A program made the translations under genes and the position numbers. Positions 7,001-25,884 of a stretch of 53,264 nt of DNA are shown piece by piece. Under the pieces are notes generated by a model. It was not told the origin of the DNA, searched no databases, and worked only from the letters and a program-made list of their open reading frames with translations. The DNA comes from an uncultured Verrucomicrobiota bacterium (GTDB lineage: Bacteria > Verrucomicrobiota > Verrucomicrobiia > Chthoniobacterales > JACTMZ01): positions 1-53,264 of the forward strand of contig CAJBKE010000063.1 in assembly GCA_903953565.1 (NCBI GenBank). Reading direction: 5' to 3'. Each line of letters starts with the position of its first letter. Position 1 is the first letter of the stretch.

Positions 7001-8721
7001 AGTGTGCTTCCTAGACCGCGTAGAACCGAAGCTAGTCGCTGATAACGCCAGAGATGAAGGGGGTGCGTCGGCAAAAGCACTGCTTTCCACGACTCGCGGT
7101 CGTCTTCGAGCTCGCATTTCACCTGCATGACATCAAGTGCTAGTAACCCATGCAGGCCAATCTCGGCCCAACCTTGATCCACTCCGACCATGTTACGGAA
7201 CTGAGACTGAACTTGGCGGTAGAGACTAGTCGCCCTCGCAAGGTAACGATCCACCACAACTGCCATCTCCGGACGCCCCGCCATCCAATCCAAGGGGAAC
7301 TGGAACAATCGGTCGAGGTGGGCGATGAGGGTCGCTCGGTCTGCAATGAACTGATCCCAGTCGGCCAAGATACTGACCTGATGGCCACGTCGCGCGAGCT
7401 GGGTGTCCCAGTCAGCGAAAACTTCCCGTAGGGCCATGGTGCGTCCATCCATGACGGCGACCCTCCCAGGCTCAAGTTTGCATGTCTCACAGGCGCTGTG
7501 CTGTTTGAGCGCAATCGAAAGCGACGGCTCACGAGTGACAAGAAGTCCTCCGAAAACCTCCGAGGAACAAAAACTGTGCAGCCAATCGAGTAGAGAAGCA
7601 TCGAGATCTAATCGGATCCGCACTTCTTGACCGCGGATTTCGACGCTCGCTTCGATGCTCCGTTCATCTTTCTCCAGCGCCTCGTCGAGAGCTTTCTCAA
7701 GCTCGACGATTCGAGCGCTAAGGCTCTGCTGTCGGTCATCCAGAAGATCCTCACCCGTTGCTCCCGCAAGTTCGCGACGACCACCTGTTGTCGTCTCAGG
7801 CTCTACATCTTCTACGGGCCCATCCTCAATTTCTGATATCTCTAGCTCCGTCTCGGAATCCTTGGGAGGACGAAACACCTCCTGCGCTTCCTCAGTGGTT
7901 ACAGAGGCAAGCTCCGCGACCGTGGGATACAATCTCACACGCTCGAGCTTATCGCACACAGCCAGTAGTCGGTCACGTGTGGCCAAGTCATTTCGGAAGC
8001 GTTTGTTGAGGTTTCTCTGAACAGCACGCAGTGCGGTAGCCGCTGCGTCCTTCACTCGGGCCACGACCTTGAAATTGGCAATCAACCGTGCGCCGATCTC
8101 ACCCGGTCTGGAGAACAAACCTGGATCTGCGAAAAGCCCCAGCTGTGGCAGCGCGGACCGGGGCGCATCAAGCGTGTCCTCATCGCGAGCGGCGAACCAT
8201 GAGGCAAGAAACGAACTCACGGAGTCTAGGGACAGTAGATCGGCGATTTCCCCGGATCGGAGTGCCCGCAACAACTCCACCTGCAAGTCATTCACCGCGA
8301 GAGAGCCAGAAGTCTCGGCCCAATCCAGCAATTCATAGGTCAAGTCTTTCGACTGAGCCGACCCGAAATGGTCGAGAGTGCTGACACCGGGATGCCAACC
8401 GTGTGCCAGCGAGATGATCACCGGATGCTCGCTGCGGTGGTTGCGCCAGTCTGCTGCGACATGAAGATCATCGGTTAATCCTCTCAGCCTCCCGAGACCA
8501 CTTTCGCGGAACGCAAACTCCAAGTCGGTTGCCGACAACGGAAAGCCTGCGATAGCAATCGAGACATCGCTTGAGTTGAACTCCGCCTGCTGCGCGAGGG
8601 CGTTAAGGAACCACCCCACATCCATCAAGGGCAGGGCTTCCCGCATGAAGTCTCGCCCTCGGACACGAGGCGACGAGATCCATCGAGCAACCGCTTGAGC
8701 TACGAGCTGTTCTTTCGTCAT
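4096..8721 (-). CDS. Large PD-(D/E)XK nuclease / RuvB-like AAA+ protein of a putative defence operon
   Basis: This 1541-aa protein has three parts. The long N-terminal region (1 to about 950) is unrecognised apart from LLPTHPLHLW (549-558), an HPL motif I associate with DptH-type proteins, and a Glu-rich linker near 290-320. A nuclease-like segment follows: D982, then E999-V-K1001 after a hydrophobic strand, matching the D...ExK core of PD-(D/E)XK enzymes. The C-terminal part (about 1215-1540) resembles RuvB AAA+ ATPases: Walker A GSAGVGKSS (1246-1254), Walker B VVMIDEVH (1306-1313), a sensor ATTDSGRL, an arginine-finger-like FRSRPDRI and a winged-helix-like tail. It overlaps the 440-aa gene by 4 nt (ATGA). 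I infer a DNA-translocating restriction effector in the cytoplasm; DptH-like ancestry with a swapped motor is a hypothesis. Confidence 0.7.
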   Translation of the reverse strand: MTKEQLVAQAVARWISSPRVRGRDFMREALPLMDVGWFLNALAQQAEFNSSDVSIAIAGFPLSATDLEFAFRESGLGRLRGLTDDLHVAADWRNHRSEHPVIISLAHGWHPGVSTLDHFGSAQSKDLTYELLDWAETSGSLAVNDLQVELLRALRSGEIADLLSLDSVSSFLASWFAARDEDTLDAPRSALPQLGLFADPGLFSRPGEIGARLIANFKVVARVKDAAATALRAVQRNLNKRFRNDLATRDRLLAVCDKLERVRLYPTVAELASVTTEEAQEVFRPPKDSETELEISEIEDGPVEDVEPETTTGGRRELAGATGEDLLDDRQQSLSARIVELEKALDEALEKDERSIEASVEIRGQEVRIRLDLDASLLDWLHSFCSSEVFGGLLVTREPSLSIALKQHSACETCKLEPGRVAVMDGRTMALREVFADWDTQLARRGHQVSILADWDQFIADRATLIAHLDRLFQFPLDWMAGRPEMAVVVDRYLARATSLYRQVQSQFRNMVGVDQGWAEIGLHGLLALDVMQVKCELEDDRESWKAVLLPTHPLHLWRYQRLASVLRGLGSTLSAEDRQAVIDECRRPEQFLSVLYASSLPANKGGARLLPISSDLHGLATFENLQNACSGLDGVETIRYAMDRFAVSHPLHLKPMRVGVLNPPDAPHLAVEIAKILSERREGTLPALRLEFFSTTSPAVRGRSAQALAFSSETMDVLEERISSGRLEMQIHEEPRSLEHWIAHWRREPQHMLILFDEAGVSIRRSDMGLPMPMSPFCVRKVIRYQELRGTVRLDPTTDEPPFSEFMQLMNEADRGQRDSTPNAWADAENLRHTVDVVLQGEEPGAFWLGLADRALPAESGLQSVRFLARREGQREVLLLARDYRRLADLVRPAFNRWNLDVTTRQLCSLLEEGVHLSGAGILNLIKRDGTVDANQVLGLAGTLLAARDYAGRHPGSLIVSADQQIARHWLRLGKRADRCDLIALRQEGEGLVLEAIEVKSTQGTVADVARGTLDQAIGQLLATMEAVSDGLSGAGEDCGPLSVPRCEMLKEVLVRACLGKQVTPELRGTWCGWLSRIFGQEGEPLPVEVRGEVVRVALGESATVAPEVAQFADTSVVIRTLGEDDVQHLIERSVSSPEILTPGTPVSSTSESRVAAMQPEAEQEPAREEEPLRAAFESVSAPESLASPAQEVPLLDAAPSDVTWPPQQNELGMIGQDETVRQLMNRLHYTRDFHERFKDTMFVGSAGVGKSSFARAIADRLLGEREIFFSGADLSRGRMIVEKLQDEGKIPDNQIRPVRVRPCVVMIDEVHALTPTVANILLSALDDARLTTIDNVDYDFTQVVFLMATTDSGRLTEAFRSRPDRIHLRNYTLEELAGIVWLHATRQLEGYSLTKDACMEIAARTRAQPRVAVRTIDQLIPHFYAEVRGPDSSPNRQRIGEAMTVEAIAAYFDGQGIDANGLDVTARNFLSYLDRHGANAEERIRQGLGISNRNDFVEVDEYLQRLGLVMVRGGRSLTPEGRRYLRQSVDLRHRIARQQ

Positions 8722-10040
8722 TGATCAGAATCCGCAGTGATTTCACATAAAACCAGACCATCCGATGGCTCGAATGCCAACCCAAGCGACTTGAGGTGTT
8801 CGACGAAACGCGCTCTGTTCAGCCGCAAATCGTCGTCTTCATCGAGCCCAACTATTCCGTCTTCAGCCAACCGGCCACTGTCGTCAGGACACCCTCCGAA
8901 CGAAAGGCCCCACACCTCCCGTATGCGTGTTGCCACTTCCGAGAACATCACTGGACCTTCGGTAGAGGAAATTACGGATGCCACCAAAGCACGAATGGTG
9001 TCGGGCTGAGGCTCGTAGTGCTTTGCACGCACGGTTGAAGCCCGCGGCTGCACCAAGCCAATTCGCACGGCGAGATCCTGAAAATGTCGCTCGACGTCCT
9101 TCAAGTCGATCCGACCGGTCTGGGAATTCACATAGTCGCCAAGGGTCGCAATCACGCCTTGCTCTTGCAGACTGATGAACGACTTGTAAACAAGTTCCCG
9201 GTGCCTCGAGAAGCAATGAACGCTGCGCGACCGGCATTTCGGCGACTGGCCTCCCGTAAAATCGGCGAACAAAAGCGAATCATGATTGATCCCCGCAATC
9301 GCGGTCGAGGAACGGATCAGATACTTCAATAACCAGACTCCAAGAACCGTGACCAGCTGGCGAAGGAAAGCGTATCTGGATTCGACACGTCCGATCGTTT
9401 CGACCAGCCGCAGTATGCCAGCCGTCTGAGGGTGCATAAGATCGGCCACTTGTTGCAGACGGCTTACGTCGAAACATTCGTCGCTCCCGCCATCAAAGCC
9501 CTCCCAAGCCAACGCGGTGTCGCCGCCATCCAATACAGGCTGGAACAACTTTGTCAGGGAATCACCCGGCTCTTCAAAGCGAAGCTTCGCAAGTTCATTG
9601 ATCCGCCGTCCTTCGTCTGTAAGTGCAAACACCGAGTAGATGAAACATCCTGCAAAGCCATCCTTTCTCTTAAGATCACAAAGGAGTTCCGGCGAGGAGA
9701 TCGTGTAGTCGTTGCCAAACGCCTTGTAATCGTCGAATGCGGCATAAACGGCATCATCATTCGCCACGATAGCGTTGGCCTGGGCGCGCAAGAGGTTCAG
9801 GTGCTCCTTCGCAACCGAATCTTCAAGAAGCCCTCGGTCCGCAAGAACCTCCCGCAAACCTTCCGTGTGATATTCCCCCGTAAGCCCTTTTTTGTTCGAG
9901 ACAACGGCCAGTTTGTTGAGCAACTCGAGCCGATAGTGCTTGCCGGTCAGAGCTAGAAAATACCCGTTGGCGAGATGCACCGGCTTGATCGCATCTAGGT
10001 GATATCCGAACGCCTGGAAAGAGACTTGCCGCTTCTTCAC
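8718..10040 (-). CDS. 440-aa middle component of the putative defence operon
   Basis: I do not recognise a named domain. The protein is soluble with a mixed alpha/beta pattern. Its centre has a hydrophobic helix pair (VWLLKYLI) followed by LLFADFTGG and a basic/Ser stretch, while the last 100 residues resemble a winged-helix-like fold ending in acidic residues. It starts at GTG (10040) within a GTGA overlap with the stop of the 1248-aa gene, and its own stop overlaps the next start by 4 nt, so all three products are made in a coupled way. Size and position match DptG of DptFGH modules, which suggests a structural or adaptor subunit. That comparison rests on gene order and length, not on sequence I can align. 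Confidence 0.65.
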   Translation of the reverse strand: MKKRQVSFQAFGYHLDAIKPVHLANGYFLALTGKHYRLELLNKLAVVSNKKGLTGEYHTEGLREVLADRGLLEDSVAKEHLNLLRAQANAIVANDDAVYAAFDDYKAFGNDYTISSPELLCDLKRKDGFAGCFIYSVFALTDEGRRINELAKLRFEEPGDSLTKLFQPVLDGGDTALAWEGFDGGSDECFDVSRLQQVADLMHPQTAGILRLVETIGRVESRYAFLRQLVTVLGVWLLKYLIRSSTAIAGINHDSLLFADFTGGQSPKCRSRSVHCFSRHRELVYKSFISLQEQGVIATLGDYVNSQTGRIDLKDVERHFQDLAVRIGLVQPRASTVRAKHYEPQPDTIRALVASVISSTEGPVMFSEVATRIREVWGLSFGGCPDDSGRLAEDGIVGLDEDDDLRLNRARFVEHLKSLGLAFEPSDGLVLCEITADSDQ

Positions 10041-13000
10041 AACTTCACAACCTCCTCATAGCGGGTAAATCTGTCATCGAGCGTGACCCGCGTGGCGAAA
10101 CGGCTTTCGGCACTATAGATCAAGAACTGGCGAGAATCGTCCCCACTAGAAAGCCTGAGGAGTCTACTCATGAAGTCGTCCAGCTTGTTGAGTGCGCTGT
10201 CCGGTAAGAGGTGACGGGGGAATCCGTGCAAAAGCCTCTCTAAGGTAGAGTGCAGCTCCGCATCGATTCGCAAGCTGGCTTCACATCCATGGTGCGCGGC
10301 GCAACTCAAGGAGAAATGGTCCGGTCGGTAATCAAATGCTCCGGCCAACCTCACTGGTAAGCGTGGAAGAAGAACCTGAAATGTCGTCAGGGGAAGCGAA
10401 CGCGCGGCAACAAACGCCCGGGTCGGTTGTTCATGGTAGCGATGAGAAAACCACAAGTAGAGATCGTGGTCACTGCCAGAGAACGAGCGCGGACAATAGG
10501 CGTAGTTGATCGCCTGGAGTATACGGCCTTTGAAGATGCTGTCAGCGTTAGTAGCTTCGTGGAGAACACGACTGAAATTTCCACCACTTGCATGCAACTC
10601 AAATGCTTTCTCGCCATGCTGGTGCTCAAAGTAAAAGCGCCTTTTGAGCGCTTTGAATCGTGCTTTACTGACCTTGGGATCACTATGGGCGACTTGGATT
10701 TGCGGAACCCCGTCAAGCCATTCTTCAGCCGTCATTTCTGCCGTTCGCTCGAGACGTTCATCCCATCGCGGATGGCTTGAAGCGGCGGGATCCGCAGCCT
10801 CGAGGAGCAAAGCACCCAATCGGAAACGAAAGCCTGAGCTCGGGAGAGTCCACAAGCGTGAGGAATACCATGACCGAGGAGCACCAATGGATGCCGTGCC
10901 GTCGTTTGTCTCAGAGGGATCGCCAAATAGCATCCTAGCGAGGCATATCCAGAGTTCGCGCACCGTGCACCTGTGACCGCGATCCGCCAAACTCTGGAAC
11001 AGGGTGCCCAATCGTTCTTGCACACGCGGGTTGCCAAGCCGATTAAAGTTCCACGTGAAATCCGCATCCCCGCTAGACGCTGCGCGGTTGACGATTGCAG
11101 CATCCGAAAGCATGCGACGCAGGGCAGCGATGGAAAAAGATGCAGCTAGCGGGTTGCGCAGACTAAGATCTACCACAAGCAAATTCTGGGACGCTTCTTC
11201 GCCAGGCTTAGTATCCGCGCCGTAAGCGAGTCGCTCCCTTGTCTGCCTCGAAAGTTCGCCATGCAGTGCATCAGGAAGCACCCCGCGTGCGGCGCGCGTA
11301 AGCAAATGAAGGGGATATTCATTGGCGGCAACACAGTAAGGTTTTTGCGCGTCGAGAGCTGCCTTCCAGCGGTCAAGGATGGGAGTCACGGTGCCTCTGC
11401 GCATGACCGCAGTGGCATCGAGATCTACCATCGCGCCAGCGGCGCTCAGAGTTGGAGCGATTCGCTTAAGAAGGTGAGTCTTCCCGTCGCCGGCGTTCCC
11501 GGTGAGAATGATGCTGAAGCCCTCTTGGACCCTCTGAACTAAGAAATCCTCGATTCCTGTCGGCACATGAAGCCGATCGAGGTCCTCTTCGTTGAGGCAG
11601 TCCGAACAACTTTGTGTCCCGGCAGCGGCCAACGACTCCCAGAGCTTGGTGTCTCCTATCGTCTCGGTGGATGTTGCCAAAGGTGTAGATAGCGAGATTT
11701 CTTGGGCGACTGATTTAGACGGTCTTTCTTCCTCCTGCGTAGGGAGTCTTTGGCTCAACGCCCACGCATGGCACGAGTTCAGCGCTTCCATCAACGGCTG
11801 ATGGTCAAGTCTTCGGCACAACCACCGCTCGCGCCAGTAGGCTGAGATCCGCGCAGTTGCGTCGCGGAACTCTGCTGGACTCCTAACGAAGTCGGGAACC
11901 TTGCCACGCTCAGACCTAAGAAACTCGTCCGCGTCTGGGAAAAGTTTCACGCCATACACAATACGACGCTGGTGGTGCTGCAAAAGCACGTCCGCGTCGA
12001 AGCCTAGCTCGTCAAGCCCAGTGCGAAGCTTTCGTAGCTTTGGACTGCGCCCCTCACCGAAAACGCTGTTCACTTCGCGGTAGCCTCTCATGGCTGTCAC
12101 GACCTGCTCGACGGCTTTCACTGTATCCGCCGAGAATTGCACCGTGCCAAATCCGCCGGTTTCACCCATTGCCTCGTAGCGGATTTCCTGTTGTTCCGGC
12201 GATATGATACCGGCAGGCAGGCGGATGCGGTTGTATTGGCTTGCGCCATGGAGGTAGAGGGAGGTGGTGCCGAGGAAGACGAGGCGCGAGTCTTTGACTA
12301 CTCGCTCGTTTTTCATCATCGAGCTGATAATGGAGACGGATTGTCCATATCGTTGGGTGTAGTCGTCGGCAACCTCCGGGCTGAGCATGAGCAGCGCGGC
12401 GAGCTTGCCGCCGAGGATGTGGTTGTAAGGCCGCACGGCGCCACAGACCGTGATCTCAAGCATGGACGTGCCGGCTCGAGCATTCTTCGCGGAAAACCAT
12501 GTGGTGTTCACGGCCGTGGTCACCGCTTCCGTTGCGTAAGCCGCAGCTGCAGCGCCTGGCAAGAGAAGCTTGTTCCGTTGTTTCTGGAAGACTAGGCGTG
12601 CCTGCAACAAGCGTGCGAGTTCGGCGGCACGTTTCTTGGCGGTCAGCGCCCGGCGGGCTGCATCCATCTTCGCATCACCGAAAACCTTCTCTTCTAGAGA
12701 GAGCACATCGTCGGAAACCCCGGGCATGGCGTATTCGACATCCTCGAGCTCCTGGACGCAGAGAGGAGACTCGGAGGTCGAGAGCAACGACTGACGTTGG
12801 TCAGCGAAACCGGCAGCGCGCCGCTTCAGGCGGGCGACAATTTCTTCGGTGGGGTGGTCGGCTTCCTCCGGGCGCAGCAACTTGTCGTGAGAAACGGAGT
12901 CAAGTCCGAGCTGCACGTTGGCCTCGAGGTCGAAGAGAAGTGAGGCCAACGCCTCACGTGCCGTATCGTCTGGCAAAGCCACGAGACCGCGGACGTGAGC

Positions 13001-13783
13001 CTGCGTGGCAGAAGCGGTCCAACCTAGAGCGCGGTCACGGTCCCCAAGAGCCAGCGGGGCGTTGCTTAGTGCTGTGATGCCCATAACCGCATGGCTGGGG
13101 TGGGCGGCGTCGCGGACGAGGTAAAAGAGATTACGACCGGGTACGTTGGTGGCAGGGATGCTCCACGTGAAGCGGAAGTAGCGCCAGATGTCGGATAGGG
13201 AATGGCCAGTAAACGCATCCTTCCCACCCGGTTCGACGAGCTGCAAATACGGCTGCACGGCATCGGCGCAGAGCGCGACTCGCTCATCTCCTTGAATCTC
13301 TGAGGCGCTTAAGAGCCGCGTTCTCAACTCGCGCCCATCGGCAATCAGCTCGAGCACAGATTTTTTTTTGCTGGCCGCACTGGGTCGCTCCATACGCCCA
13401 ATGAAGTCACGGACGGACGGCAACTCGAATTGCTGCCGAATGCGCGACGAAAGCTCCTGTCGCACGGCATCCTTGTAGACGAGCGTTTCGTGCGCTGAAA
13501 CACCCCTCGCGTCCGGTGTCGCCAACTCAATGCCGAAGCCGTCCTCGACAATACGCCAGCGGAGCTTGGCAAGGTCCGTCAACAGGTAGGCGCAGGCAGT
13601 GTAGTGTTCGCGGCAACCGTTGAGGCCTGGGGCGGATTCACTCCAGCGAACCTCGTCGCGGCAGAGGGCATCGAGGCGGTCCGAGGATGCCTCCTGTTGT
13701 TGCAGCCGACGAAGTTGCCCGGCAAGCGCACGAAAGCGCTGCCCCGCAAGGCCCTCGAGACGGTGGTGGACGGCAGTAAACAT
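10037..13783 (-). CDS. DruA-like (DUF4338) domain fused to a P-loop ATPase
   Basis: Residues 1 to about 690 carry the signatures of DruA, the DUF4338 protein of Druantia anti-phage systems: NVPGRNLFYLVRD (213-225) with RDRALGW (249-255); YNHILGGKLAALL (453-465) with SPEV; LGTTSLY and SQYNR shortly after; and FGEGRSPKLRKLR from 575. After a linker comes an NTPase with Walker A GNAGDGKT (762-769), a Walker-B-like strand LLVVDLS and a helical C-terminal half, resembling DptF-type ATPases. A stand-alone DruA is normally around 400-600 aa, so the fusion is unusual. There is no signal peptide. It is the first of three 4-nt-overlapping genes and lies 46 nt after an HNH gene. Likely role: sensing or processing DNA with ATP-dependent control of the downstream nuclease (inferred). 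Confidence 0.75.
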   Translation of the reverse strand: MFTAVHHRLEGLAGQRFRALAGQLRRLQQQEASSDRLDALCRDEVRWSESAPGLNGCREHYTACAYLLTDLAKLRWRIVEDGFGIELATPDARGVSAHETLVYKDAVRQELSSRIRQQFELPSVRDFIGRMERPSAASKKKSVLELIADGRELRTRLLSASEIQGDERVALCADAVQPYLQLVEPGGKDAFTGHSLSDIWRYFRFTWSIPATNVPGRNLFYLVRDAAHPSHAVMGITALSNAPLALGDRDRALGWTASATQAHVRGLVALPDDTAREALASLLFDLEANVQLGLDSVSHDKLLRPEEADHPTEEIVARLKRRAAGFADQRQSLLSTSESPLCVQELEDVEYAMPGVSDDVLSLEEKVFGDAKMDAARRALTAKKRAAELARLLQARLVFQKQRNKLLLPGAAAAAYATEAVTTAVNTTWFSAKNARAGTSMLEITVCGAVRPYNHILGGKLAALLMLSPEVADDYTQRYGQSVSIISSMMKNERVVKDSRLVFLGTTSLYLHGASQYNRIRLPAGIISPEQQEIRYEAMGETGGFGTVQFSADTVKAVEQVVTAMRGYREVNSVFGEGRSPKLRKLRTGLDELGFDADVLLQHHQRRIVYGVKLFPDADEFLRSERGKVPDFVRSPAEFRDATARISAYWRERWLCRRLDHQPLMEALNSCHAWALSQRLPTQEEERPSKSVAQEISLSTPLATSTETIGDTKLWESLAAAGTQSCSDCLNEEDLDRLHVPTGIEDFLVQRVQEGFSIILTGNAGDGKTHLLKRIAPTLSAAGAMVDLDATAVMRRGTVTPILDRWKAALDAQKPYCVAANEYPLHLLTRAARGVLPDALHGELSRQTRERLAYGADTKPGEEASQNLLVVDLSLRNPLAASFSIAALRRMLSDAAIVNRAASSGDADFTWNFNRLGNPRVQERLGTLFQSLADRGHRCTVRELWICLARMLFGDPSETNDGTASIGAPRSWYSSRLWTLPSSGFRFRLGALLLEAADPAASSHPRWDERLERTAEMTAEEWLDGVPQIQVAHSDPKVSKARFKALKRRFYFEHQHGEKAFELHASGGNFSRVLHEATNADSIFKGRILQAINYAYCPRSFSGSDHDLYLWFSHRYHEQPTRAFVAARSLPLTTFQVLLPRLPVRLAGAFDYRPDHFSLSCAAHHGCEASLRIDAELHSTLERLLHGFPRHLLPDSALNKLDDFMSRLLRLSSGDDSRQFLIYSAESRFATRVTLDDRFTRYEEVVKL

Positions 13784-13829: not shown

Positions 13830-14606
13830 CTAATTGTAAAATTGCAAACCGCCGCCGAAGCCCAAGTGCGCCAGGACTGCGACAGACATGATTTTGTCGG
13901 ACTTTGAGAGGTTGTGCTTGGCGCAAAGGAGACGAACGTTGGCTGCCGTAATACTGCTGCCGCCACGGGAGAAAGGAATGTCGTGGTCGTAGTGCAGGTT
14001 GTGGTTTGCGCCGCACTTAACGCAGCGACCTCCGTCCCGCTTCCACACCTCGCGCTTCACTTCGCTAGGAATGAGTCGGGTGATCGGAACTTCAACGCGC
14101 CCGCTGAACACAGTCTTCTCCACCGGATGCAACTCGAAGCAGAAGACCTTGCGTTTTCCATCTAAGACGTAAGCGGCGTCAACGAGCTCGAAGACACCTT
14201 TGTAGCTCCATGTTCCCGGCTGAATCTTTTCGTAGATGCGGATGAGGTGTGGCTCCTTCAACAATCCGCTTTTGTAGTCGGTGGCAGCGCGGAAAAATTT
14301 TCCGTTCTCCGTCCATTTGCCGTTCGGCGTGGTGAGCGGCTGATCGACAGCCTTCGGATCAACGCCTGCTTTCTTTGGTGCGTCGTGCCCCTCGTAGATG
14401 ATGCACCCGGTCGCCGAATCAATCTTGTCCCGATACGGAGCGCCCGGTCGGACCGACATCAGAAAGACGGAATACTTCTTCCCGATCCCGAAATTCATCC
14501 CCTTCTGGAGGTTGGCTTTCTCCTCTCGAACCAAATCGCTGTAAGAGATGATGTCGTCGGGCTTCACAGGAGGGGCAGAAGTGGTGTTATTAAAGAATTG
14601 AGACAC
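13830..14606 (-). CDS. HNH endonuclease
   Basis: This 258-aa protein ends in a clear HNH nuclease: RCVKC (C195, C198), HYDHD (H205-D209), then N-x2-LLC-x2-HN, all needed for the beta-beta-alpha metal fold. The N-terminal 170 residues form a separate beta-rich domain (YSVFLMSVRP, IYEGHD, YEKIQPGTWSYKGVFELVDA) that recalls SRA-type modified-base readers found beside HNH nucleases, but I cannot confirm this. Translation probably begins at GTG 14606. It lies 46 nt upstream of the DruA-ATPase gene on the same strand and could be a fourth operon member or an independent modification-dependent restriction enzyme. A copy of the recurrent leader element ends about 24 nt before its start. Confidence 0.8.
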   Translation of the reverse strand: MSQFFNNTTSAPPVKPDDIISYSDLVREEKANLQKGMNFGIGKKYSVFLMSVRPGAPYRDKIDSATGCIIYEGHDAPKKAGVDPKAVDQPLTTPNGKWTENGKFFRAATDYKSGLLKEPHLIRIYEKIQPGTWSYKGVFELVDAAYVLDGKRKVFCFELHPVEKTVFSGRVEVPITRLIPSEVKREVWKRDGGRCVKCGANHNLHYDHDIPFSRGGSSITAANVRLLCAKHNLSKSDKIMSVAVLAHLGFGGGLQFYN

Positions 14607-14746: not shown

Positions 14747-15493
14747 TCATTCCACAATCCGTTCTTTGATCGGATCGCCGATGGGCGTGCCGTAGCGGTC
14801 GGTGCGGTAGACTTCCTGGCGGCCGAGGATGTCGGTCTTTATCACCTTGCTGGGGATATCCACAGGCATGCCGTAGCGGTCGGTCTCGTAAACTTTGTAT
14901 TCGCCATCGTAGACGCCTTCTTTGATGACGAGGTGGGGCTCGTCGACAGCCAGACCATCACGGTCTGTTTTGTAGACCTCATAGCTGTCGTGGAGACCGT
15001 GCTTGATGATTGCCTTGGGCTCCCACTTCTTAATGCCGTCCCGGTCGGTCTCGTAAACCTCGTAGCGATCGTAGATCGAGGGTTCGATGATCAGCTCGGG
15101 GTAAAGTTCGCGATCTCCCCGGTTGTCGACGCCGTAAACTTTGCGCGTCGGTCGCGAGTCGAGGGCGGACACATCGTCGTCCTTCTCCGGAAAAAGCCGC
15201 TCGCGTGATCCGTAGAGAGGGGCGGCGTAGGTGCCTGCAGTATTCCAAGGACCAAGGAGTTGCGGATTGAGGAACTTGTGTTTCTCGAGCCACTCCTCCT
15301 CGTTGCGTCGCTTCCTCTCACGGCGCTCAGCCTCCTGCTGTTCCTCAAGCCGGCGGCGAATGTCCTCCCCGCGTTTGCGCATGTCCTCGATCCTGCGCTG
15401 ATGGTCTTCCGGGCTTTGTGCTTGGGTATCAGGGGTGATGGTGCAAGCGACAGTAAGAACCGCCGTGAACACGAACCCGCCGCAACTTCTCAT
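14747..15493 (-). CDS. Secreted tandem-repeat protein (VYxTDRxG repeats)
   Basis: This 248-aa protein has an N-terminal signal peptide (to about residue 26). A strongly charged Glu/Arg coiled coil follows (about 28-75), then from about 120 several repeats of roughly 32 residues with the core V-Y-x-T-D-R-x-G followed by P-x-x-V/I-I-K. I do not know the family. The repeats look like beta-hairpin units of a surface or periplasmic scaffold. The ATG at 15493 lies one nt after the stop of a 42-aa ORF, so it is the last gene of a coupled operon with the PEP-CTERM and VIT-vWA genes, suggesting a cell-envelope role. Confidence 0.75.
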   Translation of the reverse strand: MRSCGGFVFTAVLTVACTITPDTQAQSPEDHQRRIEDMRKRGEDIRRRLEEQQEAERRERKRRNEEEWLEKHKFLNPQLLGPWNTAGTYAAPLYGSRERLFPEKDDDVSALDSRPTRKVYGVDNRGDRELYPELIIEPSIYDRYEVYETDRDGIKKWEPKAIIKHGLHDSYEVYKTDRDGLAVDEPHLVIKEGVYDGEYKVYETDRYGMPVDIPSKVIKTDILGRQEVYRTDRYGTPIGDPIKERIVE

Positions 15494-15494
15494 C

Positions 15495-15623
15495 TCACCG
15501 TTTCTCCTGCTTCTTCAAATTCCGGCGGGCCTTGGAAATTTCCGTGATGTTGTACCAAATGATCGTCCCGAAAACGACGACACAGAGTGCGAAAAATAGA
15601 ACATCTATGATGCTGCCGATCAC
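15495..15623 (-). CDS. 42-aa single-span membrane peptide
   Basis: The GTG start at 15621-15623 overlaps the TGA of the PEP-CTERM gene (GTGA) and is preceded by GGAGGCGGCT. It encodes 42 residues: a hydrophobic segment (about 2-23, IIDVLFFALCVVVFGTIIW) followed by a basic tail rich in Lys and Arg, so it is probably an inner-membrane peptide with the tail in the cytoplasm. Its stop is one nt before the next ATG. The double coupling to real genes on both sides is the main evidence that it is translated. No function is known. Confidence 0.7.
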   Translation of the reverse strand: MIGSIIDVLFFALCVVVFGTIIWYNITEISKARRNLKKQEKR

Positions 15624-16321
15624 AGCCGCCTCCCTTTCCATCTGACCGGCACCCTGCGTTGGCGGGGCATCATTCGCTTAAAGAAGCGGAAAGCGAAAAG
15701 AGCTATCGCTGTCGAGACCACCAGGTGAGCAATCGAGGGCTCGGGGACGACGGTGAAAGCCATGTTCGGACCAACGATAGCCTGACCAGAGAACGGCGCG
15801 GATCCCGGGTAAGTGAAGTTCTGCTGCTGGTTGTTTCGCACCGCGCCGACGAGGTTCACATACGGCGAGATGGGGTCGGTAACGAAGCCCGAGGCACGCG
15901 TTTCCAAGTTAGCCTGCACGCCCAAACGGTAGGTAGTGTTGGCACTGAGGAGGACCGGTGTGCTCAAGTCGAACCAACGAAAACCAGATTCCAAAGGCGC
16001 GGATCTTCCCGAGGGCAGAATGGCGGTGGCTAGCGAACTCCCTCCCTCGCCCCAGAGACCGATGATGTTCATACTATCGAGTCCGTCACCGCCGACATCG
16101 TTGACTCCCAAGCGATGAACGCTAAGAGGGTCTTGCTTCACCGTGAAAGCGTAACCGACCGTATCATAAAGAAGGCCGGTAGAACCGGAGATCTGGAAGG
16201 TCAGAATTTGAGCGCGAGCCGAGGAACAAGAGAGGCAGGCGACGACGACGGCGAGTCTCACGACGACTCGGTGCAGGGAACGACTGGTGTTGTATTTCGT
16301 GTTCATAGGGGATTGCTTCAC
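15620..16321 (-). CDS. PEP-CTERM sorted exported protein
   Basis: This 233-aa protein begins with a signal peptide (about residues 20-38, ending ARAQ). A beta-sandwich-like body follows, with a pattern (LGVNDVGGDGL, TTYRLGV) resembling DUF4082-type domains. It ends with the sorting signal VVPEPS (about 193-198), a hydrophobic helix and an Arg-rich tail. PEP-CTERM proteins are processed by an exosortase during export, usually in biofilm or envelope formation. The start at 16321 overlaps the stop of the VIT-vWA gene by 4 nt; an internal ATG at 16306 is an alternative. No exosortase gene is in the window. Confidence 0.85.
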   Translation of the reverse strand: MKQSPMNTKYNTSRSLHRVVVRLAVVVACLSCSSARAQILTFQISGSTGLLYDTVGYAFTVKQDPLSVHRLGVNDVGGDGLDSMNIIGLWGEGGSSLATAILPSGRSAPLESGFRWFDLSTPVLLSANTTYRLGVQANLETRASGFVTDPISPYVNLVGAVRNNQQQNFTYPGSAPFSGQAIVGPNMAFTVVPEPSIAHLVVSTAIALFAFRFFKRMMPRQRRVPVRWKGRRL

Positions 16322-18705
16322 ATTGTGGCGGCATCCGCTTCGAGTTGAGAGGCGACGACGTCTGACTGAAACTCCAAGGCGAGCAGCACGGCGGTGTGCT
16401 CGAGATCGGCAAAGTGACGGGCTCGGTCGTGGAGTTCCTGCTTCCGCTGGCGGGCGTGTTCGCGCAGGGATTGCAGCAACCGATCGACTTGGTCGACCGC
16501 CTCTTGTTGCAGCGCGACATGCTCGTCTTCGCCGGTTTTCTCCATGGCATGGATGCTGGCTTGGATCCGCTCCAACGCATCGCGGACTTCATGCGGGTAG
16601 GATTGCCCCGGGTAGAGCATGTCGACGAGTTGGCGCAGACGCTCGACGAGTTCGGCAACTTCCGGCCGTAGAGTGGATCTGCTGCGTGACGAAACGCGCT
16701 CAACCAACGCGGCAACAAGCGCAATGGGCAACGTGAGCAAGGCTAGAGGCGCTCCCAAAAGGATTGCGGCTGAACTGACATGCTTCTTCCTACGCCGAAT
16801 TCGCGGTCCCGGCCTTGAGGCCCGGATACCGGGGTCGAAACTGTCCTCTTGCACGACGTTGTAGAGCTTGTCGGGTGGCGGTGCCATGCATGCGCTGACG
16901 TGCCTTTCGACTTCCAAGGCAGGCTGGATGATCTCGGTTTGGGCGACGGGAACTTGCTCGGCTTCATCCCAAGCAATGAAAGCCGCGTCGCTCGACAGAA
17001 GGTTGAACTGTTTGGCGACAACCAGCGCTTCGTCCTCGCGGTTGGATGCATCCAAGGAGCGGATGCGCGTGCGGGCCCAGATCAGACCCGCGTTGCGGAA
17101 GCTGATTGGTTGAGGGTTGAGGGATGAAAGTTGAGCGTAGACGTCGGAAGAGGGCGGAGAGCCGGTGGGCAGCGTGAAGGATAAATCGAGCGTGGGAGCG
17201 TCGGGGGTCGCGCTGATGGGGATTACGATATCGTCCGCATCGCAAAGGTCGCGCAGCGGAGTTTCATCGGCTGTTGTCCAGCCAGGGGGCATGGTGAGTC
17301 CGGTCACCACGGGTGCACGAAGAACGGGGGCAAAACGCTCGACAGCTCCGGCAATGTCTTCACCAGGAGCGAGGAAAATGGAACGGCCGCCGGTTTCCTT
17401 GGCGAGCGCATCGAGACCGTCGTTGGCGCTCATGGCCACGCCGAGAATATGCACGGGGCAGCCGAGTTTCTTGGCTGCCATCACAGCACCGTATTCGTCG
17501 CCGACCTGCCCGTCGGTAATGACCAGAACAGCGGCATGATGCTCTCCGCTATGAGCGTTCTTCTTCTGGAGGAGATGCTCGAGAGCCGGCACAAGCTCCG
17601 TGCCGCCATCCACACCGATGCGGTAAATGGCCGATCCTTCAGCACCGAAGTCGATGTCGGCCGCGCGGATCAGCTTGGATTCGTAATCGCGGACACTGCT
17701 TTCGAAGAGCGCGAGCCAGACGCGGGTGGCGGGATGCAGTCGAGGGACAAACGCGGCGAGGGCTTTGCAGGCTCCGGTCCAGTTGTCTCCTTCCATGCTG
17801 CCGCTGCGATCGAGCAGGAAATACACGTCGGGCGGAGGAGCGGTTGCCGTATTTGCCGGCGCCTCGGGCAAACGTATCTCAAGAAGTCCCCGGTTACTTT
17901 CATCGAGCCACGCACGGACCACGGGTGCGTCGGGGCATTTCTCATTCCATGTGAAGATGAAGTCCCGGTTGGGCAAATTGCCATCGATAGCCAGAGCAGC
18001 GAGTAAGTCCTCACCTTCCTTGCGGACAACGATGGGATGACTCGGAGATGAGACAGAGTCAGTGAAATCCCCCGCCCCGCGCAGACGGACCGAGGCGTGC
18101 AGGGAAGCAGCATCGGGATGATCGGCGGCAATGCGCGGGGTCGTGATACGCGAGGCATCGGGGACCAAGTCGGTATCGTCGATGGGACCCGGACCGGAGT
18201 TTTCCCGCAGGAGCGGTTCCCCTGCAATGTAGCGCACGCCGGGGTTGACCGGAATGCGCAGGGTGCGGCGTTCGCGCAAACGTTGCACCGGTTGCAGGTA
18301 GGCGAAACGCATCAGGACGATGTCGCCGGGTTGGAGATTGCCAAGCTGGAGGGTGAAGAGATTGTCGCGTTCGCTTTCGGTGAGGGCAGCGCGACGACCG
18401 CGGGCCTTGGCTTGCTTGAAGAGCTTGCGGGCTTCGCTGCGCTTTTCGGTCTTGGCGATGATGACACGTCCGTTGACGCGCATCTCGCAACGGTAAGCGG
18501 CCGCATCGGCCGGCAACGGGAAGAGGTAGCGGCAATCGAGGGGCTGGTCGTTGTTCTGCTCGAAGAGCTGGTCGACTTCGACGTCGGCAAAACCGGCGGT
18601 GATATCGGCGCGGACACTCAAGCCCCGCAAGGGGAGGACGATGCGGGATTTTTCCAGCCAGGCTTCGAGGCCGAAGGGTTCGGAGGGAACATTGCGTGAT
18701 TTCAT
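16318..18705 (-). CDS. VIT and von Willebrand factor A domain protein
   Basis: This 795-aa protein has a VIT domain (about residues 20-140: DVEVDQLFEQNN, CRYLFPLP, AYRCEMRVNGR) and a vWA domain (about 290-460) with the MIDAS motif D299-R-S-G-S and a later VITDGQVGD. A hydrophobic stretch near 650-675 (LLGAPLALLTLPIALVAAL) is a probable membrane span, followed by a coiled coil to the end. VIT-vWA proteins bind protein partners through a metal site. No signal peptide is evident at the N terminus, so the vWA part may be cytoplasmic with a C-terminal anchor. It overlaps the regulator gene upstream and the PEP-CTERM gene downstream by 4 nt each, indicating joint expression. Confidence 0.85.
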   Translation of the reverse strand: MKSRNVPSEPFGLEAWLEKSRIVLPLRGLSVRADITAGFADVEVDQLFEQNNDQPLDCRYLFPLPADAAAYRCEMRVNGRVIIAKTEKRSEARKLFKQAKARGRRAALTESERDNLFTLQLGNLQPGDIVLMRFAYLQPVQRLRERRTLRIPVNPGVRYIAGEPLLRENSGPGPIDDTDLVPDASRITTPRIAADHPDAASLHASVRLRGAGDFTDSVSSPSHPIVVRKEGEDLLAALAIDGNLPNRDFIFTWNEKCPDAPVVRAWLDESNRGLLEIRLPEAPANTATAPPPDVYFLLDRSGSMEGDNWTGACKALAAFVPRLHPATRVWLALFESSVRDYESKLIRAADIDFGAEGSAIYRIGVDGGTELVPALEHLLQKKNAHSGEHHAAVLVITDGQVGDEYGAVMAAKKLGCPVHILGVAMSANDGLDALAKETGGRSIFLAPGEDIAGAVERFAPVLRAPVVTGLTMPPGWTTADETPLRDLCDADDIVIPISATPDAPTLDLSFTLPTGSPPSSDVYAQLSSLNPQPISFRNAGLIWARTRIRSLDASNREDEALVVAKQFNLLSSDAAFIAWDEAEQVPVAQTEIIQPALEVERHVSACMAPPPDKLYNVVQEDSFDPGIRASRPGPRIRRRKKHVSSAAILLGAPLALLTLPIALVAALVERVSSRSRSTLRPEVAELVERLRQLVDMLYPGQSYPHEVRDALERIQASIHAMEKTGEDEHVALQQEAVDQVDRLLQSLREHARQRKQELHDRARHFADLEHTAVLLALEFQSDVVASQLEADAATM

Positions 18706-19187
18706 CGGGAGGTGACTTTCTGTTTCTGGAGGATGCGGTTGATGGCGGCGACTTGGGCGGCGGTGGGGCGCGCGCCGTCACGACCGATCAAGGCGAAGGA
18801 GCCCTCGAGCGGGGTGACGTTCCAAGTCTCGGCGGAAAATGGGGGCAAGGTGGCAACGGGCTGCTGCTCGCGCTTGGCGCGGGTGAGAAGCTCGCGGAGG
18901 TTGGCGTCGTCGCGACCGTAGAGGAGTTCCTGGATACGGCGCAGGGGCATGCCGCGGGATTGGAGGGCGCGGATGGAAGCGAGTTGCAGGAAGTGGCGCT
19001 CGCCGTAAGTCCCCTCGCCTTTGAGCGGACCATCGAGAAGCCCGAGCGTGCGGTAATAGCGGAGGCTGCGCTGGGATAGGTTCTCGGCAGCCTGACCGCT
19101 GGCGGGAACGAACCCTTTTTCGGAGCACCAATCGTTCACGGCTTCGGCGAGATCCCCGAGGTTTTCGTAGGTAGTGGAGCGGTTCAT
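18702..19187 (-). CDS. MerR-family-like transcriptional regulator
   Basis: This 161-aa protein has a MerR-type winged-helix region: SQRSLRYYRTLGLLDGP, GTYGERHFLQLASIRALQSRGMPLRRIQELL (about residues 38-92). A linker and short C-terminal segment (GRDGARPTAAQVAAINRIL) follow. It lacks an obvious metal-binding Cys set, so the ligand is unknown. The ATG at 19187 is chosen because upstream in-frame sequence overlaps another gene and is not MerR-like. A perfect inverted repeat (19204-19222) sits just upstream and is a natural operator, suggesting autoregulation and control of the coupled VIT-vWA, PEP-CTERM, small-peptide and repeat-protein genes. Confidence 0.8.
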   Translation of the reverse strand: MNRSTTYENLGDLAEAVNDWCSEKGFVPASGQAAENLSQRSLRYYRTLGLLDGPLKGEGTYGERHFLQLASIRALQSRGMPLRRIQELLYGRDDANLRELLTRAKREQQPVATLPPFSAETWNVTPLEGSFALIGRDGARPTAAQVAAINRILQKQKVTSR

Positions 19188-19203: not shown

Positions 19204-19222
19204 TTGACAGTGTTGCTGTCAA
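19204..19222 (-). promoter_or_regulatory. Candidate MerR operator
   Basis: A perfect inverted repeat, TTGACAG-TGTTG-CTGTCAA, of 7-nt arms and a 5-nt centre lies 17 nt before the ATG of the MerR-type gene. It contains a TTGACA hexamer on both strands, so a regulator bound here would cover a -35 element. No clear -10 was found, so the exact promoter is unresolved. Confidence 0.6.
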
Positions 19223-20428: not shown

Positions 20429-21127
20429 TTAATCCCCGAACAAGAGCGGTGCCTGCGTGGCATACGGGTTGTTCGGACTTTGGGAGGAATACGGGCTCCC
20501 GTAGGTCGAATACGGATTTTTGATGGAAGTGGAAGAATACGGACTGCCGTAGCGTCCATAGGGATTTGCGACGGAATCGGGATCGTAAGGATTGTCGCTC
20601 AGTTCCCCGAGATAAGTGCCGTCTTGTGCAACGATCTTCGGAGCATCGGTGGCGCAAGGATTGCGGGCACTGGTTGGGGAAAACGGGCTGCCGAATTGGC
20701 CATAAGGATTGTTGACGCTCTTGGCTGAATACGGACTGCCCGCGGCGCTGTAGGGATTTGCGGTGGAATCCGAGGCGTAGGGATTCGCGCTGAGCCTTCC
20801 GAGATACTCGGGACAGTCAGCATCGTCTTCGGCGATCTCCGCGACGCGGTAAACCTGAGAGACCTGGGGCTCGAGGCCGCATTGTTCAACCAGCGGATCC
20901 GCATCAACCACGGGAGCGACAAAGGGCTGAAAGACCGGAACGATCGGCTCAATAACGGGCCGAATCGGCCTGATCGGTTCGATGACCGGCGTGCGCAGCG
21001 CTGTGTCAAACGCATCAAAGGAATCCGTGGCCGCGGTTTGTTCGGGTTCCTCGTCCCAGCCAAACTGGGCGTGAGCGCAAGGCACCACCAAGAGGAGAAC
21101 CGCCGCGAGGAGCCAAAGCTTTTGCAT
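20429..21127 (-). CDS. Secreted repeat protein (NPY / YGSPYS repeats)
   Basis: This 232-aa protein has a cleavable signal peptide (residues 1-20, ending AHAQ). An acidic/Pro segment follows with I-x-P-I-R-P-V-I-E-P repeats (about 45-75). From about 115 to the end there are short repeats built on NPY-x(2)-YGSPYS-x(2)-S-x(2)-NPY. Such Tyr/Asn/Pro/Ser-rich repeats occur in exported proteins of unknown role and may form extended or surface-binding stretches. The ATG at 21127 follows the stop of the upstream lipoprotein gene by 2 nt, so the two are coupled. The repeats allow copy-number variation between strains. Confidence 0.75.
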   Translation of the reverse strand: MQKLWLLAAVLLLVVPCAHAQFGWDEEPEQTAATDSFDAFDTALRTPVIEPIRPIRPVIEPIVPVFQPFVAPVVDADPLVEQCGLEPQVSQVYRVAEIAEDDADCPEYLGRLSANPYASDSTANPYSAAGSPYSAKSVNNPYGQFGSPFSPTSARNPCATDAPKIVAQDGTYLGELSDNPYDPDSVANPYGRYGSPYSSTSIKNPYSTYGSPYSSQSPNNPYATQAPLLFGD

Positions 21128-22555: not shown

Positions 22556-23440
22556 TCAATTAGACTTGGATTTTTTGCGCGGACTGATTTTGCGTTTGGG
22601 GGCGCCCGGAGCAAGAGCGAGATAGTTGTCGCTGGTGACCACTTTGCGTCCGGTCTTCTTCTCGAGCTCCTTGCGAGCGTGGCCGGCAACGGAACCACCT
22701 TGATGGGCGGCGTGTTTATTCTCGGCAAAGCCGCGGGTGTCGCGACTGCGAGCGATTTCAGTAGTCGATGCTTCGCCGAGCATGGAAAAGATGAGTTCAA
22801 GGTCGGTCATGTGGTCGCGCAAGTTCTGGCGGTCCAGTTTCTTGTGGCGTGCGTATTCGGCGGGAGTGAGGCCGAAGGCGGCTTGGGAAATTTCCGCGGT
22901 GAGGATGGCGTATTCGCGCTGTTCTTTGACCCCGCGCTTTTTCCATTCGTCGGTGAGTTCATCGCGGATAGCGATGGAGCGCATGCGTTTCTCGATCCAG
23001 TCGTCGGAGTAACCCTTGGCTTTGTAAAGGGCGCGGGTGCGTTTGGTGGCCAACTCGGGATCTTCTATTTCCTGGATGCGCTCGTAGCCGACTTTGGCCA
23101 GCCAGCGTTTGAAGGGCTCTGCTTTGGGACTGGGGATTGACTGGATGAGGCGGAAAAGGCCTTCTGTGTTCCAGCATTGAAGGCGCTGGATACCACCGGG
23201 GGTCTCAAATGGCAGAGCAAGGGGGGGGATAATTTGTCCCCCCCCTTTGAAAGCGTCGCCCAGAAAGGGGTCGCGCTTGCGCATTTTCTTAAGGTAGTCG
23301 GAGGGATTTGTTGAGTCGGTGAGCGCAGCGACGACATCGGCAATGACAAACCACCATTCGTTGTTGTGGATGGTGCGGCGGACTTGTTTGCGCTGGAACA
23401 GGGCAATGCGCGTCTCGGGTGAATCGGCTGCGGGGCTCAT
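22556..23440 (-). CDS. Bro-N domain protein (phage antirepressor / DinD-like)
   Basis: This 294-aa protein has an N-terminal Bro-N DNA-binding domain (about residues 10-110: RKQVRRTIHNNEWWFVIADVVAALTDS, LQCWNTEGLFRLIQSI). A helical C-terminal part (YERIQEIEDPELATKR, NLRDHMTDLELIFSMLGEASTTEIARSRD) recalls DNA-damage-inducible protein D. It ends in a basic tail. Such proteins bind DNA and occur both in phages and as domesticated chromosomal genes; no other phage genes are near. The coding sequence contains a G8 and a C8 run 9 nt apart (codons for GGG and IPPL near residue 69), a possible slippage site. The region upstream has palindromes and element copy d. Confidence 0.85.
   Translation of the reverse strand: MSPAADSPETRIALFQRKQVRRTIHNNEWWFVIADVVAALTDSTNPSDYLKKMRKRDPFLGDAFKGGGQIIPPLALPFETPGGIQRLQCWNTEGLFRLIQSIPSPKAEPFKRWLAKVGYERIQEIEDPELATKRTRALYKAKGYSDDWIEKRMRSIAIRDELTDEWKKRGVKEQREYAILTAEISQAAFGLTPAEYARHKKLDRQNLRDHMTDLELIFSMLGEASTTEIARSRDTRGFAENKHAAHQGGSVAGHARKELEKKTGRKVVTSDNYLALAPGAPKRKISPRKKSKSN
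23219..23247. repeat. Paired G8/C8 homopolymers inside the Bro-N gene
   Basis: Eight G (23221-23228) and eight C (23238-23245) are separated by ATAATTTGT and extended by A/T pairs, forming a hairpin with about 10-nt arms in coding sequence. Both runs are in frame here. Gain or loss of one base in either run would truncate the protein. Confidence 0.85.
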
Positions 23441-23773: not shown

Positions 23774-24406
23774 TCACCAGCCCTCGATGCGGATGGCGAT
23801 GTTTTGGTCGAGCGTGTTGAGCCGGTCTTGCAGGCAAGCCAGCGCGGCGAGGCTGCCGGCCTCGACGTTGTCACGCCACGGGCCGTGCCATTCGCCTTCC
23901 TCGAAAACCAGATTGGCCAATGGCTCGTGGGCCGGAGCACCGCGGCCGTCATCGAGCGGCAAACCGCTCAGTAGACGGTGCGCGATGACCGATGGACATT
24001 GGTTGCTCTCCCACCACATTTCCCACTTCGTGAAGTCGGAGCCGGTGATCGGGCGGGAGAGGAATTGCTCCCATGTCTCATCCTCGGGTTCGCCGATGTG
24101 CCTGAGACAGAAACGGCGCACGGCCCGAGGATCATCGATGTCCACGCATTCGAACTGGCCGAGATATTCGAGCAAGGAGAGCGGGTCGGGCGGGAGCCGC
24201 GGATCGCCGATAGACAGCAGATACGGAGGGCCCTTGCCGTTCTCAACGGCGATGGCACTCAGGATCAGCCGCGGGTTGCGCGGGGTGGCGAGATAAGGCT
24301 GATTCGCCCGGACACAAACGTCGCGCACCACCCGGGCAAAGGAATCGGACACGAGGCACGAGCCCGCGGCCAATCCGCAGAGGGAGAGGAAGTCCCGGCG
24401 TCGCAT
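23774..24406 (-). CDS. Tat-signal exported hypothetical protein
   Basis: This 210-aa protein begins MRRRDFLSLCGLAAGSCLV, a twin-arginine signal (RRRDF) with a hydrophobic stretch and small residues, so it is probably exported folded. The rest is soluble, rich in Trp, Pro and Asp/Glu, with no motif I recognise. It ends with LQDRLNTLDQNIAIRIEGW. It starts 4 nt after the stop of the upstream lipoprotein gene and is probably co-transcribed with it. Function unknown. Confidence 0.75.
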   Translation of the reverse strand: MRRRDFLSLCGLAAGSCLVSDSFARVVRDVCVRANQPYLATPRNPRLILSAIAVENGKGPPYLLSIGDPRLPPDPLSLLEYLGQFECVDIDDPRAVRRFCLRHIGEPEDETWEQFLSRPITGSDFTKWEMWWESNQCPSVIAHRLLSGLPLDDGRGAPAHEPLANLVFEEGEWHGPWRDNVEAGSLAALACLQDRLNTLDQNIAIRIEGW

Positions 24407-25053: not shown

Positions 25054-25884
25054 TTATTTAGGCTTTCCTCCTCCACGAAGTCTTGGAGCGTAGTCCTCGG
25101 CTGTGAGCAATTTCATCTGCTCGATGGCGATTTTGTTCAGGCGCGCGAGGCGCTGGGGCTGGCTCAATCCTTCGCCGATGAAGACGGCATTGAGATTTTC
25201 CAGATTTGACAGGCAAACCAGTTGGGCGCCGGTGGCCTGGTCGCGGATGTTACCTTTGTCTTTCGGGTGCGCGGCGCGCCACTGGGCGGCGGTCTGTCCG
25301 AAAAGGGCCATGTTGAGCACGTCGGCTTCGTTGGCATAGACGAGGTTGGTCTGGGCTTTGCTCAACTCGGGCGGAATGAGGTGAGTCTGGATGGCGTCGG
25401 TGTGGATGCGGTAGTTGATCCGCGCGAGGTTGCGGCGGATGTCCCAGCCGAGCGTCTGACGCTCCTGCTCCTTGAGGCGCTGGAATTCCTTGATGAGGTA
25501 GAGTTTGAACTCGACGGAGATCCACGAGGCGAACTCGAGGGCGATGTCGAGGTGCGCATAGGTGCCTCCGTAGCGTCCGGCTTTGGACTGGATGCCGATG
25601 GCGCCGGTGCGCTCGATCCATTGCTTGGGCGTGAGGGTAAAGCTGTTGAGTCCGGCCACTTTTTTAATCCCGTCGAATTCGACGGGATTAAAACCGGGGT
25701 TATTGATCTGCTCCCAGATACCGAGGAACTCGATGGTGTTGCGGTTGCGCAACCAGTTGCGAATCAAGTCGTCACTGGCTTCCGGATTGCGGTATCGGGC
25801 GATGTCGGTGAGGCAGACATAGTCGTGCCCCTCGACTCCGGTGAGGCGGACTTCGCGGGAGAGAACTTCTATTTTCTTGCTCAT
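25054..25884 (-). CDS. KilA-N domain DNA-binding protein
   Basis: This 276-aa protein has the KilA-N pattern across residues about 15-140: VCLTDIARY, IRNWLRNRNTIEFLGIWEQ, GLNSFTLTPKQWIERTGAIG, AGRYGGTYAHLDIALEFASWIS and LIKEFQRLKEQE. A C-terminal domain follows with RIHTDAIQTHLIPPELS and a conserved end (QRLARLNKIAIEQMKLLTAEDY). These proteins are DNA-binding regulators shared by large viruses, phages and bacterial chromosomes. It has no phage neighbours but a Bro-N gene lies 1.6 kb away. A perfect 32-nt palindrome lies within its coding sequence near residue 69. Element copy f lies about 125 nt upstream. Confidence 0.88.
   Translation of the reverse strand: MSKKIEVLSREVRLTGVEGHDYVCLTDIARYRNPEASDDLIRNWLRNRNTIEFLGIWEQINNPGFNPVEFDGIKKVAGLNSFTLTPKQWIERTGAIGIQSKAGRYGGTYAHLDIALEFASWISVEFKLYLIKEFQRLKEQERQTLGWDIRRNLARINYRIHTDAIQTHLIPPELSKAQTNLVYANEADVLNMALFGQTAAQWRAAHPKDKGNIRDQATGAQLVCLSNLENLNAVFIGEGLSQPQRLARLNKIAIEQMKLLTAEDYAPRLRGGGKPK
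25662..25693. repeat. Perfect 32-nt palindrome in the KilA-N gene
   Basis: The arms are TTTTAATCCCGTCGAA and its exact complement, centred on GAATTC with no loop. It encodes F-N-P-V-E-F-D-G-I-K in the DNA-binding domain. A palindrome of this length is not expected by chance in a window of this size. Confidence 0.95.

Follow-up and report, generated by a model that had tools for sequence, protein, structure and literature searches.

A MerR-coupled VIT-vWA gene pair, preceded by an operator-like dyad, heads a five-gene locus in an uncultured Verrucomicrobiota bacterium

The stretch of DNA analyzed here (the window) comprises nucleotides (nt) 1 to 53,264 of contig CAJBKE010000063.1 from an uncultured Verrucomicrobiota bacterium (GenBank assembly GCA_903953565.1), and window positions follow its numbering. 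Five genes are read from the minus strand, from position 19187 down to 14747. The first (18702 to 19187) encodes a MerR-family regulator of 161 amino acids (aa), assigned from Pfam (MerR_1, 1.2e-9), a structural model, and alignment, and the second (16318 to 18705) encodes a 795-aa VIT-vWA protein (Pfam VIT, 1.2e-26; VWA, 1.8e-10). They are followed by genes for a secreted PEP-CTERM-type protein with a weak DUF4082-like domain (15620 to 16321), a 42-aa peptide with a single transmembrane (TM) segment (15495 to 15623), and a secreted-looking repeat protein (14747 to 15493). The MerR and VIT-vWA genes overlap by 4 nt (18702 to 18705). The next two junctions are also 4-nt overlaps, at 16318 to 16321 if the PEP-CTERM frame starts at GTG 16321 and at 15620 to 15623 if the TM peptide starts at GTG 15623. 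An alternative PEP-CTERM start at ATG 16306 would leave an 11-nt gap after the VIT-vWA gene and give an N terminus of about the same length as that of its ortholog, while ATG 15641 would extend the TM peptide to 48 aa. A single nucleotide lies between the end of the peptide gene (15495) and the start of the repeat protein gene (15493). As 4-nt overlaps occur commonly elsewhere in this genome (e.g., at 8718 to 8721 and 10037 to 10040), the overlaps alone indicate tight packing and are no proof of a functional unit.

The five genes and tight junctions described in the original prediction are real, as the coordinates were confirmed and orthologs were found in the same order at locus L039 of a congener (G003), one of ten other genomes of the genus; the gene-neighborhood search thus established that the order is not unique to this contig. 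Identity between window and congener was 86% for MerR, 56% for VIT-vWA, 77% for the PEP-CTERM protein, 52% for the TM peptide (over 42 aa, at the same place), and 68% for the repeat protein. The corresponding ratios of nonsynonymous to synonymous substitution rates (dN/dS) were 0.20, 0.30, 0.20, 0.21, and 0.17, so all five genes are under purifying selection; together with the conserved order, this indicates that they are genuine, the 42-aa peptide included. The first two junctions in the congener are again 4-nt overlaps, followed by gaps of 9 and 131 nt at the third and fourth. Behind the five genes, its repeat protein gene overlaps by 4 nt with a gene for a second secreted repeat protein carrying NDYDxxxSYTxRP repeats (L039, 5470 to 6240). 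Outside the operon, the two contigs shared only two genes, both weakly similar: a lipoprotein-like gene and the gene at window positions 23774 to 24352. The latter, which is uncharacterized and about 37% identical to its counterpart (L039, 10614 to 11240), lies directly upstream of MerR in the congener and 4.6 kb upstream in the window.

The first two genes are far more widely distributed. Adjacent MerR and VIT-vWA genes were identified in further families of the same order as well as in further classes of Verrucomicrobiota. Scanning named genomes yielded 13 loci, of which 12 had a long match, all with MerR directly upstream (these include Opitutaceae, Chthoniobacteraceae, Prosthecobacter, and records labelled Akkermansia); the thirteenth was a short, weak match. 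Among plasmid records, VIT-vWA follows MerR in the betaproteobacteria Massilia and Aquabacterium and in Nonomuraea (Actinomycetota), with overlaps of 4, 11, and 4 nt, respectively, and the VIT-vWA gene of Rhizobium is followed by a sortase gene and has no MerR. The pair is therefore conserved in at least three bacterial phyla.

Genes were called around some 70 VIT-vWA genes, and counts were made after doubtful starts had been inspected. MerR was located directly upstream on the same strand at all 26 loci whose VIT-vWA protein lacks a signal peptide, compared with none of about 44 secreted ones, a split without exception in the examined set (Fisher value about 1e-19 for 26 versus 43, which overstates independence because the loci are related by descent). 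Nine loci that at first looked cytoplasmic without MerR were inspected singly. Three (L054, L070, and L081) do have MerR, the latter two with a broken VIT-vWA frame, and the other six (L062, L117, L122, L130, L133, and L135) have signal peptides, some only after the start was moved. Set aside from the counts were L137 (an N-terminal anti-sigma-like region and a TM segment), L126 (a contig-edge fragment), and the second match in L061. Within pairs, the overlap or gap from MerR to VIT-vWA was mostly −20 to +27 nt. The distance matrices of the two proteins were correlated (r = 0.91 over 22 pairs, with none of 5,000 permutations as high), a value to which shared ancestry of the hosts contributes.

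The secreted VIT-vWA proteins have other partners, namely, exosortases (closest to XrtQ, below cut-off), CreD with a sortase, or an extracytoplasmic function (ECF) sigma factor with a zinc-finger anti-sigma factor. Several of the secreted VIT proteins at L063 to L066, L110 to L116, L129, and L140 have PEP-CTERM-like tails, and most have an exosortase-like gene behind them (for the three tested, XrtQ was the closest match), as a dedicated protease-substrate pair. The ECF sigma and anti-sigma arrangement was seen in operons at L058, L060, and L137, and in L137 the VIT protein is itself fused to an anti-sigma-like region that has a TM segment.

Upstream of the window MerR gene lies an operator-like dyad, TTGACAGCAACACTGTC (19206 to 19222, minus strand), whose position is conserved across families and whose first six bases match a −35 hexamer. 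In the window the dyad (TTGACAGYAACACTGTC) begins 35 nt before the MerR start codon, as at most Verrucomicrobiae loci. Twelve of 15 Verrucomicrobiae-type pair loci have a site that begins 35 to 39 nt before the start codon and agrees with the consensus TTGACAGTAACACTGTC in 13 to 17 of its 17 positions, and only 0 to 2 of 500 shuffled upstream regions contained a site as good. Before the MerR genes of Massilia and Nonomuraea, TTGACAGT half-sites occur together with GACAGT or ACTGT half-sites. Allowing up to two mismatches, the dyad occurs once in the window genome and once in G344; the additional matches in G003 and G015 all fall inside coding sequence, and a wider MerR regulon was rejected on this basis. 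The original prediction held that the five genes are made together, and co-expression is plausible from these sequence features, since a second species has the same gene order and the dyad, present in a single copy, precedes the first gene.

The best-fitting promoter spacer is 17 bp in most loci, with a −10 element that ends 6 to 7 nt ahead of the start codon. These features suggest that, in the Verrucomicrobiae-type group, the site serves repression and the transcript has little or no leader. This bears on an alternative in which MerR is a classical activator sensing a small ligand or metal, with VIT-vWA as its only target and no feedback. The match to the MerR family and an operator found at its own promoter only are consistent with such a regulator. 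However, activation by DNA distortion, typical of metal-responsive members, goes with a dyad in a spacer of 19 to 20 bp, which most of these loci do not have, and no match to a metal-binding or ligand-binding domain was found in MerR, nor conserved metal-binding cysteines in the C-terminal part of its alignment. We regard a classical activator as rather unlikely.

The regulator has a MerR-type winged helix-turn-helix, with a score of 38.6 bits for PF13411 (MerR_1) against a cut-off of 21.6. Its model (mean predicted local distance difference test score, 86) consists of the helix-turn-helix, a helix, and a short C-terminal beta-hairpin-helix that can be aligned across all phyla having the pair; the top Foldseek matches of the model were MerR proteins, at E values of 0.09 or worse. 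Stand-alone MerR proteins of a sister clade are encoded at L045 (5611 to 6291), L046 (5867 to 6427), and L047 (1394 to 1987); two carry the same dyad upstream, and two are adjoined by an M48-type protease gene.

In the VIT-vWA protein of the window, PF08487 and PF00092 score above cut-off in the order VIT, then vWA. Its metal-ion-dependent adhesion site (MIDAS) is intact (DRSGSM, GGTE, and TDG), and the motif is retained in essentially all MerR-linked members. The nearest solved relatives by sequence profile search were PARP4 (1.4e-28) and ITIH proteins (ITIH1, 2e-18), and the structural model matched ITIH1 at an E value of 1.5e-30 over about 620 alignment columns, with a variable, helical C-terminal region of 150 to 200 residues modelled at low confidence. 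No sortase was present among the neighboring genes called around it. As the MerR-coupled VIT-vWA proteins have no signal peptides, the core looks cytoplasmic rather than part of the envelope.

The remaining three genes have a much narrower distribution. The tail of the PEP-CTERM protein shows a visible VPEPS-TM-KRMMPRQRR motif; the window copy was not listed by the PEP-CTERM profile at the E threshold used, its congener ortholog scored above cut-off, and the DUF4082 match (3e-5) was below the Pfam cut-off. The repeat protein contains a unit of about 27 aa (VYxTDRxG...P..VIK) in four to five copies, and no meaningful solved relative was found. Neither this protein nor the TM peptide had a meaningful Pfam match. 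Among 57 relatives, the PEP-CTERM protein had only distant matches and the repeat protein had none beyond the congener, and the three genes as a set were not found outside these two genomes. They are, judging from these searches, a local, lineage-specific add-on in two related species.

These distributions also bear on the suggestion, made in the original prediction, of one envelope or stress-response machine. In its fullest form, MerR would switch on a surface complex consisting of VIT-vWA, an exosortase-anchored PEP-CTERM protein, the TM peptide, and the repeat protein. The recurrence of the five-gene order in a congener is in keeping with this, as is the status of secreted VIT-vWA relatives in the same phylum as exosortase or sortase clients; moreover, with four exosortases and dozens of PEP-CTERM proteins encoded in the window genome, processing of the operon's PEP-CTERM protein could take place in trans. 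Yet the other three genes are missing from every other pair locus examined, and two genomes bearing the pair have no exosortase, which makes the core independent of one. The window VIT-vWA protein has no signal peptide, and its single hydrophobic stretch (about residues 646 to 671) is absent from the congener protein. A surface complex of this kind is thus improbable, and an envelope machine holds for at most two species: the envelope part is confined to two of the 11 genomes of the genus, whereas the pair, with a core lacking signal peptides, is conserved alone across the phylum and beyond. No specific link to stress response was found.

Directly downstream of the five-gene operon is a gene for an HNH nuclease with a weak IscB/restriction enzyme match (13830 to 14606), followed by an unusual defense-like operon (4096 to 13783) encoding DruA fused to an SspF-like AAA domain (1,248 aa), an SspG-like protein, and a 1,541-aa protein with a C-terminal RuvB-like AAA domain. 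On the other side are a secreted-looking protein with NPYGxYGSPYS repeats and without a family match (20429 to 21127) and Bro-N/KilA-N-like proteins matching the PADLOC candidate defense families PDC-S13 and PDC-S22 (22556 to 23440 and 25054 to 25884). In the congener, phage-like replication genes (AAA recombinase, PDDEXK nuclease, and helicase; L039, 12282 to 16001) are divergent from the operon.

The operon could accordingly be read as anti-phage or mobile-element cargo, a defense gene set in a defense island. Druantia-like and Ssp-like genes lie downstream in the window and BREX genes downstream in the congener, the operon is patchy (two of the 11 genomes), and the pair is plasmid borne in two Betaproteobacteria. 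Against this, PADLOC gave no match for MerR or VIT-vWA, no defense neighbors were noticed at most of the other pair loci read, and no relative was found in viral contigs. Such cargo is very improbable. A defense role was rejected, as the core genes were negative in PADLOC and the island context is not conserved, and so was a phage origin, given the lack of relatives in viral contigs and the absence of the repeat protein from phage records. The defense genes beside the two five-gene operons belong to different systems, which looks like a shared variable region and not a shared function.

The reading that we favor, with moderate confidence, is that the first two genes form a self-regulated cassette, with feedback on MerR from a cytoplasmic VIT-vWA protein, and that in two species an envelope module is carried behind it. 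MerR would act at its own promoter by binding the dyad there (TTGACAG-N3..5-CTGTC). Repression is the most likely outcome, since the −35 hexamer and the spacer are both covered by the dyad and, in most loci, a spacer of 17 bp fits best, not the 19 to 20 bp of classical MerR activation; the cassette would be autoregulated and probably autorepressed. The second gene would supply a cytoplasmic VIT-vWA protein with an intact MIDAS, which may sense a signal or execute the response and, by analogy with HspR/CbpA, probably modulates its MerR, perhaps by contact with the short C-terminal beta-hairpin-helix. In the window genome and the congener, the transcript appears to have gained the PEP-CTERM protein, TM peptide, and repeat protein, which would be co-induced.

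Several observations weigh against this reading. The stand-alone sister-clade regulators, at least two of them with the same dyad, indicate that such a MerR needs no VIT-vWA partner. The −10 element of the window (CAGAGT) is poor, and a promoter scan gave nothing over threshold. The operator is not universal, as different half-sites are found in Kiritimatiellae/Lentisphaeria-like members and in a few divergent pairs from Verrucomicrobiae. Signal peptides were called from hydropathy, and in six secreted cases the start was moved or the call was judged by eye.

A bolder proposal, which we put forward tentatively and hold as doubtful, is that the pair is a widespread and previously undescribed bacterial signaling cassette, in which the cytoplasmic VIT-vWA protein acts via its metal site both as the sensor and as the direct partner of its dedicated MerR repressor, a counterpart of eukaryotic intracellular VIT-vWA proteins. 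No description of the pair was found in the open-access literature searched; the component families are known, and it is their fixed pairing together with a conserved operator that appears to be undescribed. The function of intracellular VIT-vWA proteins is poorly known (PMC10539598), and a compact cassette with an apparent regulator and a sharp operator offers a tractable route to it. The division between MerR with cytoplasmic proteins and sortase, exosortase, or sigma/anti-sigma genes with secreted ones is also useful as an annotation rule, since the NCBIfam profile TIGR03788 matches both kinds.

Compared with known systems, the VIT-plus-vWA architecture is shared with the TIGR03788 marine sortase targets and their class GN sortase (e.g., Rhizobium pSK03), but those proteins are secreted, are followed by a sortase, and have no MerR upstream; the window protein scored 225 bits (1.4e-66), far under the equivalog cut-off of 551. 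The VIT-PEP-CTERM proteins of Verrucomicrobiae with dedicated exosortases (L063 to L066) share phylum, domains, and an exosortase link but have no MerR, and there the VIT protein itself bears both a signal peptide and a PEP-CTERM tail. VIT-vWA proteins are found in bacteria and throughout the eukaryotes, where intracellular forms include PARP4, VWA5A, and Dictyostelium Vwa1 (PMC10539598); these are likewise cytoplasmic but have no MerR partner and bear other appended domains. In ArnA-ArnB of Sulfolobus (PMC6509490), a vWA protein with a fold match to the VIT-vWA model (4.6e-12) also belongs to an expression-modulating module, although that module is archaeal, has an FHA-domain partner, and is not a VIT-vWA operon with MerR. 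The closest regulatory parallels are HspR/CbpA of Helicobacter and CbpM/CbpA of Escherichia coli, in which a MerR-type protein and its operon-encoded partner modulate one another (PMC7074700, PMC4063869). There the partner is a J-domain co-chaperone and not a VIT-vWA protein, so that the likeness, beyond the MerR fold, is one of analogy; nevertheless, a dedicated cytoplasmic partner made with its regulator would most simply be its modulator, as the operon-encoded CbpA is of the MerR-family repressor HspR in Helicobacter (PMC7074700).

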